Positions 52,563 to 59,340 of a stretch of DNA of 64,000 nucleotides are shown one piece after another. The DNA lies in NCBI GenBank assembly GCA_024402895.1, contig JAKSSX010000003.1:1-64000 (forward strand), read 5' to 3'. The notes under the pieces are model-generated. The model had not been told where the DNA came from and ran no database searches. It was given only the letters and a program-made list of their open reading frames with translations. This DNA is from Candidatus Saccharimonadota bacterium. Lineage in GTDB: Bacteria > Patescibacteriota > Saccharimonadia > Saccharimonadales > Saccharimonadaceae. Position 1 is the stretch's first letter. The number at the start of each line of letters is the position of its first letter. The translations under genes were made by a program, and so were the position numbers.

Positions 52563-52655
52563 TTGGTATTTCTCCTATATAAAATCTAGATTTTTCTTAT
52601 GCTTATTATATCATACGCCTTGTTGTATAATAAGGGGAAACGAAAGGAGTTTTTA

Positions 52656-53189
52656 ATGGCAGATTTTAATCAGATTTTGGATCCAGGAGAATATAAAGAA
52701 GGAACTATTAATGTTGTTGTTGAGATCCCAACCGGCAGCAATCACAAGATTGAATGGGACCGCAAGCGCGCTTGCTTTATGCTAGATCGCATTGAGCCAG
52801 TTGCTTTCGCAAAGCCATGCAACTACGGTTTTATTCCACAGACTCTCGATGAGGATGGTGATGAGCTCGATGCTCTTATTCTTACCGACCAGCCTTTGAC
52901 TACTGGTATTTACCTCAAAGCTCGCGTTCTTGGCGTTATGAAGTTTGTCGATGACGGCGAAGTTGACGATAAGATTATCTGTGTTGTTGATGACGACCGC
53001 AACAATGGCGACGCTATCAAGACTCTCGAAGATCTTCCAAAGCGCACTATTGAGCAGATTGAATTCCACTTCAACCACTACAAGGATCTTAAGAAGCCTG
53101 GCACTACTACCGTTAAGGGTTTCTTCGGCGTAGAAGAAGCAACTAAGGTCATCGAAGATTCTATCTCTCGCTGGCAGAGCGCTAACTAA
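52656..53189 (+). CDS. ppa: Inorganic pyrophosphatase, family I
   Basis: A 177-residue soluble pyrophosphatase that pulls biosynthetic reactions forward. NVVVEIPTGSNHKIEWD, NYGFIPQTLDEDGDELDALIL (metal-binding DGDxLD pattern) and DDEVDDKIICVV-like VDDGEVDDKIICVVDDDRN are visible, followed by FHFNHYKDLKK. The start at ATG 52656 has AAAGGAG upstream and TATAAT at 52626-52631; the frame before it is promoter DNA. Confidence 0.96.
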   Translation: MADFNQILDPGEYKEGTINVVVEIPTGSNHKIEWDRKRACFMLDRIEPVAFAKPCNYGFIPQTLDEDGDELDALILTDQPLTTGIYLKARVLGVMKFVDDGEVDDKIICVVDDDRNNGDAIKTLEDLPKRTIEQIEFHFNHYKDLKKPGTTTVKGFFGVEEATKVIEDSISRWQSAN

Positions 53190-53547: not shown

Positions 53548-55281
53548 TTAGTAATTATTGAAATACTGTTTTAGATACTGGCGCAATTCATCGTCGCAAG
53601 CGTAAATGTAGACGCCTTTTACGGCGCGATTCATGAGGATTCTATATGTTCTCAAAATTTGTTCAAGCAAATCGTCTTCGCTGATAGTTTCGTTGTTTGC
53701 GACTTGGCGTTGGCTGCGTTTCATTGCGCCAGAATCTGCGCAGGCTTGCTTGTTGAATTTTAGCTTGCCGTCACGATAAATGAGGTCTTCGCCAATAATA
53801 ATGCCGACATAGTTTAAGTCGTCGCCTTGTACAGTGTAAATACAGCCAACCTCGTTGGCGGCATTTGCTGAGCCGATCCAGTTTTGCTGGGTGCTGTTCC
53901 AGCGGAAATTTACGCCGTCTATTTGGAAATCGTAGGCGGTTTTATCGTTCTTGGAATTCCACTTCCAGGCAAAACCTGCGACCATGCGTGCAAGACCGGA
54001 CTCCGATTCACGTTTTTGCATTTCGGACACGAAATCATGAATATCGTCGAAAATTCTTGCATCGAAGTTATCGAAAAGCTCTTTGTTTAGCGGTCTGAAA
54101 TTATTGGAGAAAATGCCATAGATGTAATCAATGTAAGCCTTGCCACCGATTGAGCGCATTTGAGTTTTGAGATAATAGTCGCGTCTTTCGAATTCTTCGG
54201 CATATTTTGCAATGTCGCTATTATTGATGTTGGTAGGGCGAATGCGTTGTTGGTTGCTGTAAACGAGGACAACATTCTTGCTTTTCTTCATGATCCAGTC
54301 GAGCTCGGAATGAATGCCTGTATTGCCGAATAACTTTTGATCAATCTCGTGAACTTGCTTGCCGAGCGTGCCGGTGACGCCGACTTTTAGTAGATGCGCC
54401 TCGTCGACGAGTGTGATGTCGAAATTATCATCGCTTTTGCCGAATTGGACAGGGGAAAAGATGCGTATATCTGCGCCGCCTAGGTCGATTTTCTTGAAGA
54501 TTTTTTGGATGCGGCTGCAAAGCGAAGGTTGTGGAACGATTAGGGCGATGCGTTTATTTTTGAAGCTTTGATTAATATGTTCAACTTCAAAGAAGACATC
54601 AAAATTTGACTCGTCTTCGATGCTATCGTTAAGATCGTCAAAAGATTGAAGGTCGGCGAGCAACTTGGCGAGATACATGATGACGATGGTTTTGCCGGTG
54701 CCAGCGTCGCCGTCGATAATGGAGAGGCTTTTCTTGTCGTCATTGATTGCTTCGTCTATATTTTGGACGATTTCCGTAACAACGTTGAGCTGTTCGAAGT
54801 TTAGATTTTTGTATGGAGAAAATTTGAATAGCTCGGAATTGTTGATTTCAGCGATCGTTTTGTCGGCGATTTTTAGTTCGCGGAGGCGATTCCAGATTTC
54901 TTCGAAAGTTTTGCGGTAATTTTGCTTGTCGTAATAATTGCGGTCGCACATGCCGCTGTTGCGGTTGAGGACTTTGTATTTTCCGTCACCACTAAAATAC
55001 TGAATGAGATAGGATTCTAAATCTAGGGCAACGCTCTTGTTGAAAGTTTCGTCGAAAACAACCCTGAAAGTACCATGCTGGAGGCTGGACTTTTCGGTGT
55101 TTGCCAGATGCTGGTTCATGCGATTTTTAAGGTTAGTCGTTTCGCCAATATAAATTTCGCGATTGTTGCTGATTTGGTAGACGACTGGCCAGTTTTCTTC
55201 CAAACGATTATCAGTAGCGAGCTGATTAACGGCCGCTTGGCTAAAAATGTAATCTTTGATTTGGAAAGTTTTTTCTGACAT
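53548..55281 (-). CDS. GIY-YIG nuclease domain fused to a DUF2075-type superfamily I helicase
   Basis: A 577-residue protein. About residues 32-100 form a GIY-YIG endonuclease domain (VVYQISNNREIYIGETTNLKNRMNQHL, with a downstream acid). The rest is a DUF2075/Schlafen-group-3-like helicase: Walker A IIDGDAGTGKTIVIMYLAK (about residue 195), Walker B FDITLVDEAHLL, a motif III-like VVLVYSNQQRI, and the C-terminal EVGCIYTVQGDDLNYVGIIIGED and TYRILMNRAVKGVYIYA (motifs V-VI). Such fusions are often found near defence or mobile genes; the substrate is unknown. It follows the MazG-like gene by one base. Confidence 0.85.
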   Translation of the reverse strand: MSEKTFQIKDYIFSQAAVNQLATDNRLEENWPVVYQISNNREIYIGETTNLKNRMNQHLANTEKSSLQHGTFRVVFDETFNKSVALDLESYLIQYFSGDGKYKVLNRNSGMCDRNYYDKQNYRKTFEEIWNRLRELKIADKTIAEINNSELFKFSPYKNLNFEQLNVVTEIVQNIDEAINDDKKSLSIIDGDAGTGKTIVIMYLAKLLADLQSFDDLNDSIEDESNFDVFFEVEHINQSFKNKRIALIVPQPSLCSRIQKIFKKIDLGGADIRIFSPVQFGKSDDNFDITLVDEAHLLKVGVTGTLGKQVHEIDQKLFGNTGIHSELDWIMKKSKNVVLVYSNQQRIRPTNINNSDIAKYAEEFERRDYYLKTQMRSIGGKAYIDYIYGIFSNNFRPLNKELFDNFDARIFDDIHDFVSEMQKRESESGLARMVAGFAWKWNSKNDKTAYDFQIDGVNFRWNSTQQNWIGSANAANEVGCIYTVQGDDLNYVGIIIGEDLIYRDGKLKFNKQACADSGAMKRSQRQVANNETISEDDLLEQILRTYRILMNRAVKGVYIYACDDELRQYLKQYFNNY

Positions 55282-55759: not shown

Positions 55760-55774
55760 TGTTATAATAAAAGA
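55760..55774 (+). promoter_or_regulatory. Extended -10 promoter of the structured RNA
   Basis: TGTTATAAT (-10 at 55763-55768). The seventh base after the box is G55775, the first base of the 15-bp closing stem. Confidence 0.6.
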
Positions 55775-56000
55775 GTCTTAAATCAATTTAATAATTTGCA
55801 CTTAGGCTACAATTCTGCACTTATTTTGTAGCGGAGTTTTTGAAACAACCCATAAACCCGGGAAGATTCATCGCTCCGGTTAGGCTGTTTCAGCTTAAGT
55901 GCAGAAATTGATTTAAGACATCATGCGGTGTAATGTTCCCGGATTCATGATGTAACCGGCTAAATTGTATTCAAATAAGACACCGCGTGGTGTCTTATTT
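55775..56000 (+). ncRNA. Highly structured RNA, probably the leader of the restriction-modification operon
   Basis: The core is 145 nt (55775-55919), closed by a perfect 15-bp stem: GTCTTAAATCAATTT with AAATTGATTTAAGAC. Inside, TGCACTTA (55797-55804) pairs with TAAGTGCA (55896-55903); GCTACAA/TTGTAGC (55806-55832) is a hairpin whose loop holds a second TGCACTTA; CGGAG (55832-55836) can pair with CTCCG (55874-55878) across GAAACA/TGTTTC, implying a pseudoknot. Downstream come ACATCATG/CATGATGT and a perfect 12-bp hairpin AAATAAGACACC-GCGT-GGTGTCTTATTT (55973-56000). No other promoter is seen before the methyltransferase. Confidence 0.65.
55908..55920 (+). repeat. Repeat TTGATTTAAGACA, copy 2
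   Basis: An exact copy of 55656-55668; it forms the 3' arm of the closing stem of the structured RNA. Confidence 0.6.
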
Positions 56001-56040
56001 TCTTTCTGTTGTGTTGTGGCGCTAGTGGTTAGGAGGCGCT

Positions 56041-57048
56041 ACGAGCTCAAAGAGGCTTTACGGGCAATATTACACTGTCACTAATCCATTCGAAACGGTG
56101 GGTTTTTATAAGTGGTTAGACGAGATAAAAATTAGTAGCGATGATGTAATTCTGGAACCGTTTGCTGGCGCAAATAACATCCCGAGAATGATAATAGAAG
56201 ATGACATTATGCCCGATTCAAAATGGGATTGTTTTGATTTGGAGCCAGGCGAGAATGTTCTTCCGGATTTTGAGATAAAAGTCGAGGATACGATAAACAA
56301 TTACCCGAAGGGATATAAAGTTGCTATTACTAATCCTCCATATTTAAGCAAGAATTCCGCTACTAGACGAGGTCTAAAGTATCCAGATACTGATTATGAC
56401 GATATCTATAAACTATGTTTAGATGTGATGCTGCGAAATACTCCATATGTTGCGGCTATTGTTCCTGAGACATTTTTGACGTCGAGGCTATTTCATAAGA
56501 GGCTTCATTCGGTCATTTCTTTAACATGTAAGATGTTTAGTGATACTGATTGTCCGGTGTGTTTAGCCCTTTTTGTGCCAGAAAAAGAAGCGCCTAAATC
56601 TTTTGATATATATAGAATGAATGAGCTTTTAGGGTCATATTCTGAGTTGACTGCTAATGACGTGCGTGATGTATTGGGGATTGCATGGAAATTTAACGAT
56701 CCTAATGGTGAGATAGGAATTTGGTGTATTGATAACACTAGAGAAGAATCAATCTTTTTTGGGAGAGGGGAAAAAATTTCGAGTGGAGACATTAAGAATA
56801 CTTCTCGCTCTATAACGAGAGTCGGTGGTTTTCCGGAGGGGATAAATATAGATGAATTTATTGATGCCTGTAATGAAATATTAGCTAAATATAGAGCAGG
56901 AACAAAAGATGTTTTTATGGCGTCCTTTAAAGGACTGCGTATCGATGGCCTTTATAGAAGAAGATTAGATTTTGCTACGGCTCGTAGAATAATGAATTTA
57001 GCTTTGTTTGAAGTTGCGAAGAGGGTGGCTAATAATGAGAAGAATTGA
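56041..57048 (+). CDS. N6-adenine DNA methyltransferase, predicted ACG start
   Basis: A 335-residue methyltransferase. If read from ACG 56041, it begins (M)SSKRLYGQYYTVTNPFETVG, which supplies the conserved GQYYT motif (motif X). Motif I is ILEPFAGANNIPRMI and the catalytic motif IV is ITNPPYLSKN. AGGAGG at 56031-56036 sits four bases before the ACG; no ATG, GTG or TTG occurs in frame between the upstream TAG at 56023 and GTG 56098. Starting at GTG 56098 would remove motif X and lacks a ribosome site. Codon use (many ATA, AGA, GGA) differs from neighbouring genes, suggesting transfer. It overlaps the next gene by 14 bases. Confidence 0.75.
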   Translation, partial: TSSKRLYGQYYTVTNPFETVGFYKWLDEIKISSDDVILEPFAGANNIPRMIIEDDIMPDSKWDCFDLEPGENVLPDFEIKVEDTINNYPKGYKVAITNPPYLSKNSATRRGLKYPDTDYDDIYKLCLDVMLRNTPYVAAIVPETFLTSRLFHKRLHSVISLTCKMFSDTDCPVCLALFVPEKEAPKSFDIYRMNELLGSYSELTANDVRDVLGIAWKFNDPNGEIGIWCIDNTREESIFFGRGEKISSGDIKNTSRSITRVGGFPEGINIDEFIDACNEILAKYRAGTKDVFMASFKGLRIDGLYRRRLDFATARRIMNLALFEVAKRVANNEKN

Positions 57049-57727
57049 TTATGTGAGCGCCTATAGAAAAGCACTCGAAGAGAATGTATCTGAAGTAAAG
57101 AAGGCGGTATTGACGCGTGATAGCGCTATGTTATTAAAAATACACAATTATTCTGAGCGCTTTAACCTTCCTGAAAAATTCGTGGAGCATAAGATTTTGA
57201 AGGATAATGTTTTCGCGAATCAATTTGCCAAAGACCCGTCGAAGCAGTCTTTGCACCAGAAAATAGCGGCCGATTTCATAAGTTCAATTACTGAAGTTGT
57301 TAATTTTGCTCAATTACCAGCTAGCGGCGGGGATGCATGCTATATATGCGATGACGGCGTAGTTAGGAAAGGGGTATGTTCGCATGGCTTAACGAAGTCG
57401 ATAGACTTTTATTGGGAATATGGCGATTGTCGATATTTTGCGGCTCATAAGCATACGACATATGAGGGTGGCGCGCAAGATAATCAATTTAATGATTTGC
57501 AGGCGTTTTTGGAAAATGCTAGCAAGTCAACGTTGGCGAATACATTCTTTATCGCAATAGGCGACGGTGAATACTATCAGAAAAAATATACTGAATCCGG
57601 CGTTTCTTACGAAACTAGGATAGATTATATGAATAGTAATTATGGCTCCGAATTCGCACTTGCTGCAACTTGCAACGATCTAGAGGAATTTATGGTAGCG
57701 CATTCTGGCAATAGAATGATTGAATAA
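57035..57727 (+). CDS. Probable type II restriction endonuclease
   Basis: A 230-residue protein that I do not recognise by family. It directly overlaps the methyltransferase, the usual layout of a type II restriction-modification pair. A Cys-rich middle (CYICDDGVVRKGVCSHG) could bind zinc. After it comes KSIDFYWEYGDCRYFAAHKHTTYEGGAQDNQFNDL, written here in two parts as KSIDFYW and AAHKHTTYEGGAQDNQ, where Asp, Lys and Glu/Gln could form a PD-(D/E)XK-like site. The start at ATG 57035 has GAGGGTGG upstream. A terminator follows. Confidence 0.6.
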   Translation: MRRIDYVSAYRKALEENVSEVKKAVLTRDSAMLLKIHNYSERFNLPEKFVEHKILKDNVFANQFAKDPSKQSLHQKIAADFISSITEVVNFAQLPASGGDACYICDDGVVRKGVCSHGLTKSIDFYWEYGDCRYFAAHKHTTYEGGAQDNQFNDLQAFLENASKSTLANTFFIAIGDGEYYQKKYTESGVSYETRIDYMNSNYGSEFALAATCNDLEEFMVAHSGNRMIE

Positions 57728-58197: not shown

Positions 58198-59340
58198 ATG
58201 GCATTTCTAAAAGCTTTCGGCGGTGCTATCAGTGGTGCTTTTGCTAACCAGTGGTTAGAATACATGGCTCCACCAAGGACTATGACCGATCATACCCTAA
58301 TTGCTCGTGCAGTTCCTGTAAAGGTTAACGGCAGCGAGAATAATGATGGCGAGGAACAGAGCAACCTTATTTCTAACGGCAGCAAGTTCATGGTTCCAGA
58401 AGGTACCTGTCTCATTACCGTAGAAAACGGTGCTATTGTTAGCGTTATCGCAGAACCAGGTGGTTATACTTACACTACTGAAAACGTCCCAGAAGCTCGC
58501 TCGATGTTTGCTGGCGATGGTTTCTTTGCTTCCACCTTTGGTACTAGCTTCCAGCAGTTCAAGTTCGGTGGCCAGCCAGGCAACCAGCAACAGGCTTACT
58601 ATGTAAACCTCAAGGATATCATGGGTCTTGCCTATGGCACCCAGAATCCTATCCGCTACAAGGATGCAAACTATGCAAACACTATGCTTGCAGTAACCAG
58701 CAATGGTACTTACACTATCAAGGTTGTTGACCCAGTTTTGATGTTCAAGAACCTCATCCCAACCGATATCACTTCCGGTCAGGGTCGTTCTCAGTTCGAC
58801 CTCGGCGAAGGCGATGGCGGCGTTGAAGAAAGCCTCTTCTCTGGCTTTGTCGGCTCTCTCGCAACTGCACTTTCCGCATTTACTAAGGGCGGTAAGTCTA
58901 TTGATGATATCCAGGGCGGTACTGTTGAGTTCGCAAAGAGCGTCAACGAAGCTGTTGAACAGAACTACCAGTGGGGTACTAAGTACGGTCTCGCTATCGT
59001 AAACGTACAGCCACGCGGTCTCGACTGGGATCAGCCATCTGTCGATCTTATCAACAAGTTCAATACCGGCAACCTCATGCAGGGTGGCGTTGGCAATGCT
59101 TACGCACAGACTCAGATTGCAGAGGGCTTCAATGCTGCAGGTAACAACGCTGGTACAGGCGGCATTACCGGCATGGGCTTCGGTATGGGCATGATGAATG
59201 GCGCTGGCATGGGCTTCATGAACAATGGTGGCGTAAATCCAGTTCAGCAACAGCAGATGCAGCAGCCAGCTGCTCCAGCAGCTCCTGCAGCTCCAGCTCA
59301 GCCTGAAACTCCAGCAACCCCAGAGACTCCAGCGGAGTAA
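58198..59340 (+). CDS. SPFH/YdjI-like protein with a Gly/Met-rich and Pro/Ala-rich tail
   Basis: A 380-residue protein of the SPFH-like 'virion core'/YdjI family. FLKAFGGAISGAFANQWLEYMAPP is the typical start; residues ~60-285 form the SPFH domain (LISNGSKFMVPEGTCLITVENGAI, EPGGYTYTTENVPEARSMF, SFQQFKFGGQ, GTYTIKVVDPVLMFKNLIP, WGTKYGLAIVNVQPRGLDWD). A Gly/Met-rich and then Gln and Pro/Ala-rich tail follows. In Bacillus, YdjI and its partners gather PspA at stressed membranes. AAGGAGG and an extended -10 (TGATATACT) lie upstream. It leads the operon with two zinc-ribbon genes. Confidence 0.85.
   Translation: MAFLKAFGGAISGAFANQWLEYMAPPRTMTDHTLIARAVPVKVNGSENNDGEEQSNLISNGSKFMVPEGTCLITVENGAIVSVIAEPGGYTYTTENVPEARSMFAGDGFFASTFGTSFQQFKFGGQPGNQQQAYYVNLKDIMGLAYGTQNPIRYKDANYANTMLAVTSNGTYTIKVVDPVLMFKNLIPTDITSGQGRSQFDLGEGDGGVEESLFSGFVGSLATALSAFTKGGKSIDDIQGGTVEFAKSVNEAVEQNYQWGTKYGLAIVNVQPRGLDWDQPSVDLINKFNTGNLMQGGVGNAYAQTQIAEGFNAAGNNAGTGGITGMGFGMGMMNGAGMGFMNNGGVNPVQQQQMQQPAAPAAPAAPAQPETPATPETPAE

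Follow-up and report, generated by a model that had tools for sequence, protein, structure and literature searches.

Sparing the cell that carries it is the classic control problem of a restriction-modification (R-M) system, and the answers known so far are C proteins, promoter methylation, methyltransferases acting as repressors, antisense RNA and codon effects (PMC3874152, PMC12707154). The R-M operon considered here, from Candidatus Saccharimonadota bacterium (assembly GCA_024402895.1, contig JAKSSX010000003.1; all coordinates refer to the 64,000-nt stretch analysed, hereafter the window), raises the question of how such control is achieved with no ORF for a small HTH control protein between 55600 and 56041. 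What lies in that interval is a structured RNA, encoded at 55775-56007, which begins 7 nt past an extended -10 box and continues into the DNA-methyltransferase gene. We propose, with a probability of about 0.7, that this leader would act in cis as a riboswitch-like attenuator of the R-M operon and that it would belong to a family widespread in Saccharibacteria. At the level of sequence comparison, its structure, position, terminator, alternative pairings and R-M association are established, and from these we infer switching in the cell, its direction and its response to a signal.

The leader domain is closed by a stem (P1) in which GTCTTAAATCAATTT is perfectly complementary over 15 bp to its partner, as a preliminary description of this DNA had stated; across 400 dinucleotide shuffles, the longest Watson-Crick stem measured 11 bp (mean 7.4), so that none reached 12 bp. 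The minimum free energy of the 226 nt is -78.5 kcal/mol, vs. -47.5 ± 4.1 for shuffled sequences (z = -7.56; 0 of 200 as low). The two further perfect helices announced inside P1 are both there, i.e., P2 and GAAACA/TGTTTC (55842-55847 with 55886-55891), as is the 12-bp hairpin ahead of the methyltransferase ribosome site (55973-55984 with 55989-56000), which is followed by a T-rich tract and scored as an intrinsic terminator. The transcription start, which had been placed at the first base of P1, fits the promoter TGTTATAAT, in which TATAAT (55763-55768) is preceded by TGT and ends 7 nt before that base. The same description had named CGGAG (55832-55836) and CTCCG (55874-55878) as a pseudoknot: this pair does cross GAAACA/TGTTTC, but CGGAG is missing from most of 12 aligned relatives, and it was rejected as the conserved pseudoknot in favour of CCGGGAA/TTCCCGG, which is kept and compensated (Table 1).

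Table 1. Coordinates of the leader, its regulatory elements and the genes behind it in the window.
Feature	Position	Strand	Remarks
Extended -10 promoter TG-T-TATAAT, no visible -35	55760..55768	+	From sequence; TGnTATAAT kept before nearly all leaders tested, 6-7 nt from P1
P1, 5' strand, from the predicted transcription start	55775..55789	+	Covaries among divergent leaders
P1, 3' strand, last bases shared with the T1 5' arm	55905..55919	+	
P2, 5' strand	55797..55808	+	Second copy TTCTGCACTTA at 55813-55823 can use the same partner
P2, 3' strand	55892..55903	+	
Pseudoknot strand CCGGGAA, inner loop of the P1 domain	55858..55864	+	Compensated in relatives; equals the loop strand of other leaders
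Pseudoknot partner TTCCCGG	55936..55942	+	Pairing may extend (55925-55942 with 55858-55874)
Hairpin T1, ACATC-ATGC-GGTGT	55918..55931	+	Equivalent to the terminator of other leaders; U tract absent here
Terminator T2, 12-bp hairpin and T-rich tract	55973..56007	+	Kept, partly compensated in relatives
Ribosome-site hairpin	56015..56043	+	Stem 56015-56022/56036-56043; AGGAGG (56031-56036) at the loop; start codon in the stem; kept in relatives
DNA adenine methyltransferase, Eco57I-like, start ACG	56041..57048	+	PHROG 18657, E 2e-52; Pfam Eco57I, E 2e-4, below cut-off
Second gene of the operon, probable restriction endonuclease	57035..57727	+	Weak PHROG 18366 match, E 0.0023; otherwise position

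The leader falls outside every Rfam 15 family, in agreement with the earlier impression that no known RNA was recognizable: covariance models found no match in the window region at the gathering score and chance-level matches alone at E < 10, while a search of the leader's relatives returned tRNAs only. Several other origins were discarded. The repeated motif AAGACACC is not over-represented in the window, which speaks against a DNA-uptake sequence or a common terminator; a mini-ORF in the leader (MRCxxPGFMM*) was rejected as coding by eye, since its variable codons differ at all positions and it has no Shine-Dalgarno sequence; and an integrated element or IS end was rejected because the window's own genome holds one full copy and the flanks are unrelated among most genomes.

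Twelve other genomes of the genus have copies of the leader, with 85-89% identity over the stretch between the -10 box and the methyltransferase start. The sequence upstream is mostly different among these copies, and the genes behind them also differ: an EcoRI-type methyltransferase with a GmrSD/HNH nuclease, an Eco57I-type methyltransferase with a small endonuclease, or two methyltransferases with a T5orf172/ResIII-type protein. The first 48 nt of the leader are near-invariant in these congeners. Alignment of the 12 copies shows no change in P1 and only G-C/G-U exchanges in P2, so these closest copies alone yield no covariation for P1 and most of P2. The pseudoknot, T2 and the start-site hairpin do vary with pairing retained, and compensated forms of the pseudoknot in relatives include CCGGGAG/CTCCCGG and CCGGGGA/TCCCCGG.

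More divergent relatives were sought with covariance and protein searches, which together brought the collection to about 50 leaders in Saccharimonadales, standing before at least five kinds of methyltransferases (EcoRI, Eco57I, C5, N4/N6 and GEVFT-type). With the covariance model, additional copies came to light in this genus and in one other, all heading EcoRI-type methyltransferases and with P1 altered on both sides (GUCUUAAAU/AUUUAAGAC, GUCUAUAAC/GUUAUAGAC, GUCAAUUAC/GUAAUUGAC). Matches of model R1 that were confirmed as the window's leader type all lie ahead of methyltransferases; its opposite-strand matches (E about 1e-6) were set aside as self-complementarity artefacts at the same loci. 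Many leaders are invisible to the covariance model and emerged when the regions ahead of EcoRI-type methyltransferases were inspected throughout the family and the order. The leader is present at 34 of 54 EcoRI-type methyltransferase genes in the sampled Saccharimonadales (hence absent at about a third), vs. none of the 28 loci from other Patescibacteria classes. A second search starting from the RNA, with a model of another subfamily (R3), gave 21 matches, 18 of them ahead of R-M genes: nine precede EcoRI-type methyltransferases, and the others C5, N4/N6 or GEVFT-type methyltransferases or a type II nuclease whose methyltransferase comes next; the remaining three lie ahead of membrane or secreted proteins. 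An initial model for this second subfamily (R2) had been dropped, its pairs having fallen in the pseudoknot instead of P1.

These searches bear on what the preliminary description had expected of a covariance-model search over Saccharibacteria genomes, i.e., compensatory changes in the stems and co-occurrence with methyltransferases: leaders were found, P1 and the conserved pseudoknot show such changes, and the leaders mostly head R-M genes. Five leaders of the same design (L138, L140, L223, L226 and L227) stand ahead of other genes, so R-M is not the only context of the family. In L219, the nuclease gene comes first and a C5 methyltransferase second, which indicates that the order of the genes that follow a leader can vary. 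A subclass marked by the motif AACGGCACCGCATAAGCANTTCGG comprises L138:2021 (G142), L139 (G050) and L140:4210 (minus strand, G082); L138 heads a VirB2/pilin-like gene and L140 a small membrane-protein gene, neither of which is R-M. The suggestion that L066 and L067 are a different RNA was rejected on account of the P1/T1/pseudoknot design common to both, the R-M context being absent there.

Across subfamilies, the layout is the same: an extended -10 box, a P1 of 9-20 bp that starts at the first transcribed base, and a terminator hairpin (T1) that shares part of its 5' arm with the 3' end of P1 (2-6 nt where T1 was found). The loop inside P1 can form 12-19 bp with the loop and 3' arm of T1, often also with the first U's of the tract. 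When the T1 side was lengthened by 14 nt for window-type copies, and the 44-nt stretch after P1 was used for three leaders with no detected overlapping T1, in 30 of 32 leaders none of 300 dinucleotide shuffles of the interior gave a duplex as strong as this loop/T1 pairing (1/300 and 3/300 in the other two). Wherever T1 ends in a U tract, the pseudoknot exceeds T1 alone in strength by 8-19 kcal/mol. A constrained fold suggests that P1 and an A+U-rich bulge on its 5' side are followed by P2 and a junction, with the pseudoknot loop on the last hairpin of the latter. The loop motif AGGGCAUCGCGCGAAACA recurs across genera, and what the subfamilies have in common is structural positions and the loop, with few unpaired residues.

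Covariation was counted on hand-picked strands. In the pseudoknot, 10 of 12 pairs show two-sided changes and 96.7% of the cells are paired, vs. 67% in shuffled and 32-47% in slid controls, though these counts are flattered because the strands were chosen by pairing, which shuffles and slides correct in part. For P1, two-sided changes affect 9 of 10 pairs and 96.8% of the cells are paired; taken over both elements, the controls reach 63-67% (shuffled) and 25-48% (slid). A detector of the design, requiring P1, an overlapping terminator and the loop complementarity, had no match per 64 kb of shuffled window sequence, picked out 19 distinct leaders from 414 kb of collected loci, each just behind a -10 box, and gave in a contiguous 396-kb stretch of the relative G054 a single match, which is its R-M leader. 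It had no match over 325 kb of the window's own genome, and it misses the window copy, whose T1 has no U tract.

As in a riboswitch, a conserved and structured 5' leader precedes the gene that it would control, and for the family, sequence and energy point to two exclusive folds, one of them a terminator or a blocked start; the window copy, whose T1 has no U tract and is followed by T2, fits this scheme less clearly. We envisage a transcript that begins with the first base of P1 and whose 5' part adopts P1, P2 and a three-way junction, or one like it, that includes a long loop. In leaders of the general form, this loop would, after formation of P1, capture the T1 loop and 3' arm, often with the first U's. 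Since the 3' strand of P1 contains part of the T1 5' arm, P1 with the pseudoknot would be the antiterminated ON state, in which transcription passes T1, and T1 the OFF state, a direction suggested by which strands are shared. Window-type copies, as well as L112 and its like (L220-L222), have a T1 without a U tract and a second terminator T2 downstream; in these leaders, the T1 3' arm (GCGGUGU in the window type) can also pair with the T2 5' arm (ACACCGC), so the pseudoknot may there favour termination. In L117 and L118, the P1 5' strand is repeated at the methyltransferase start codon, so that the P1 3' strand could cover the start codon instead, in what looks like a translational version. Because the methyltransferase and nuclease genes both lie downstream of one leader, what it could set is the level or timing of the whole operon, which is the job of C proteins elsewhere, rather than the methylase/endonuclease balance that the preliminary description had considered. 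That the leader controls the operon without a C protein had been suggested from the window alone; comparison supports this part, homologous leaders heading many kinds of R-M operons, whereas the pseudoknot named then was not the conserved one.

What such an attenuator would respond to, if anything, can be conceived in several ways. A small molecule, e.g., S-adenosylmethionine or its product, might stabilize or break the P1/pseudoknot state, which we consider plausible, if short of even odds: the design resembles that of pseudoknot riboswitches with overlapping terminators, the near-invariant 5' end in congeners and the recurring loop motif would suit a sensor, and the swapping of methyltransferase families fits a common signal, but few unpaired residues are common to all subfamilies and no Rfam riboswitch was matched. 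A fixed attenuator without any signal, in which a constant fraction of read-through and a weak start codon hold R-M expression low, deserves comparable, equally tentative credence. It would explain why the subfamilies share structural positions and the loop only, and a fixed level needs no sensor, the window-type copies adding a non-AUG start and a start-site hairpin; yet a weak promoter could give a constant low level as well, and the conservation across genera of P1, a 12-19-bp pseudoknot and an overlapping terminator suggests a two-state device. Less probably, a protein, either a host factor or an R-M product, would bind the leader and decide between the two folds. The start-site hairpin of one subfamily does repeat P2 sequences (CAACAG/CTGTTG), like two sites for one protein; however, the loci examined show no candidate gene for an RNA-binding protein, and one leader type ahead of unrelated methyltransferases and nucleases makes an R-M protein, and the methyltransferase itself as the signal, unlikely.

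Two further explanations seem improbable. The leader might be mainly a recombination target that lets R-M genes swap behind a common 5' region, as its identity among congeners vs. the different gene families behind it and the serine-recombinase-like genes adjoining two copies would suggest, but the compensatory changes in P1 and the pseudoknot reveal selection on RNA structure, of which exchange may be a consequence. The free-standing RNA that the preliminary description offered as its alternative, i.e., a trans-acting small RNA ending at T2 with an incidental R-M neighbourhood, would account for the promoter, the terminator and the stable fold, but is disfavoured by the short and constant distance of window-type copies to the methyltransferase start, their conserved start-site hairpin, the lack of a second promoter in between and the same position held by divergent relatives.

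To the attenuator that we favour, window-type copies add a non-AUG start codon and a start-site hairpin. The methyltransferase frame of the window has no ATG, GTG or TTG upstream of 56098, and in the window-type subfamily the start codon is ATA in 17 of 20 copies, ACG in two (the window and L016) and ATG in one (L073), at a near-constant distance from the Shine-Dalgarno sequence. Residue 3 of the window protein aligns to position 3 of the PHROG 18657 profile ("DNA methyltransferase"), and leaderless relatives begin with M-A-N at the codon occupied by ATA in window-type copies; the other leader subfamilies start with ATG or GTG. A frameshift start through a GTG upstream ORF with AGG-AGG was rejected, its frame not being kept in L015 and L016. 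The start-site hairpin would expose the Shine-Dalgarno sequence and pair the weak start codon (ACG/ATA), with low translation as the expected outcome. The identity of the window's methyltransferase is clear, and its partner is a probable nuclease, with one weak match to "restriction endonuclease II"; this second ORF had no match in plasmids, and in the operons of relatives the endonuclease is clear.

Rare start codons have a precedent in infC (IF3), where a non-AUG start keeps translation low or sensitive to initiation factors; here ATA or ACG starts a DNA methyltransferase and is combined with a leader switch. In the fluoride (crcB) and ZTP (pfl) riboswitches, a pseudoknot in the 5' leader competes with an intrinsic terminator, and expression is ON while the pseudoknot holds. 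The layout of pseudoknot against overlapping terminator is the same in our leaders, which differ by their fold, their R-M targets, the lack of an Rfam match and a pseudoknot that uses the whole 3' half of the terminator. The device itself is thus known from riboswitches, and the family, its targets and the combination with a non-AUG start appear to be new within the open-access literature: the word "riboswitch" does not occur in the reviews of R-M regulation PMC3874152 and PMC12707154, which list no such leader control, and searches of open-access papers for riboswitches or noncoding RNA in Saccharibacteria turned up nothing relevant.

Among RNA-based controls, the antisense RNA of EcoRI and Eco29kI is reported to arise at reverse promoters within the nuclease gene (PMC3874152; Mruk et al. 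2011 as cited in PMC12707154); the window's RNA would likewise take part in R-M control, but is a sense leader, and minus-strand promoter-like sites in the window are about as frequent as expected by chance. With C-protein control, the leader has in common that it would act from directly upstream, and differs in being a cis RNA rather than a DNA-binding protein. The best hint that it takes the C-protein role comes from two cases. In L088, an EcoRI-type methyltransferase gene of the same family has no leader and is directly preceded by a 68-residue HTH protein matching PADLOC control proteins (E 1e-15), so that the RNA appears to do the job of a C protein whose like stands in its place; L190, from another class, has a similar control-protein-like gene upstream (E 4e-14). 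If the leader attenuates whole R-M operons, it would be a further answer to the control problem, one shared by unrelated enzyme families and whose place a C-protein gene takes in one relative. The Candidate Phyla Radiation would also gain a regulatory RNA family that Rfam does not list, which could provide expression tools for these organisms. More tentatively, it might represent a new, lineage-wide class of RNA switches sensing a ligand or state, which would replace C proteins as the standard R-M control and act as an exchangeable "front end" for unrelated methyltransferases and nucleases.

Some observations concern the surroundings of the leader. Upstream of it, L020 (6700-7060) and parts of L018, L019, L022 and L023 contain other promoter-headed, repeated and structured stretches, with a hairpin whose loop, CTCTAGRAA, is conserved and whose stem varies (GAGCGCAG-CTCTAGAAA-CTACGCTC; GAGCAA-CTCTAGGAA-TTGCTC) and a second motif around GAAGCCC; these have no Rfam match, and L020 carries two tandem copies. 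In three genomes, CTCCGGTTAGGC, which is invariant in the leader, has a second short copy about 235 nt upstream of the leader's own, inside another hairpin-rich stretch (L022:7287-7298, L023:6283-6294, L025:5138-5149). A serine-recombinase-like gene (NIARYLTDKKIPTPAGKEVWS...) upstream of the leader and R-M operon in L068 and L069 suggests mobility. In the window, the R-M insertion is flanked by pyrophosphatase (52599-53189) and Band-7 (58198-59340) genes, and L023 and L025 have different R-M systems in the same chromosomal place. Finally, a GIY-YIG nuclease fused to a Schlafen-group-3 helicase domain (53548-55281, minus strand) lies beside the operon and adjoins a MazG-like gene, so that the whole is possibly a small defence cluster.
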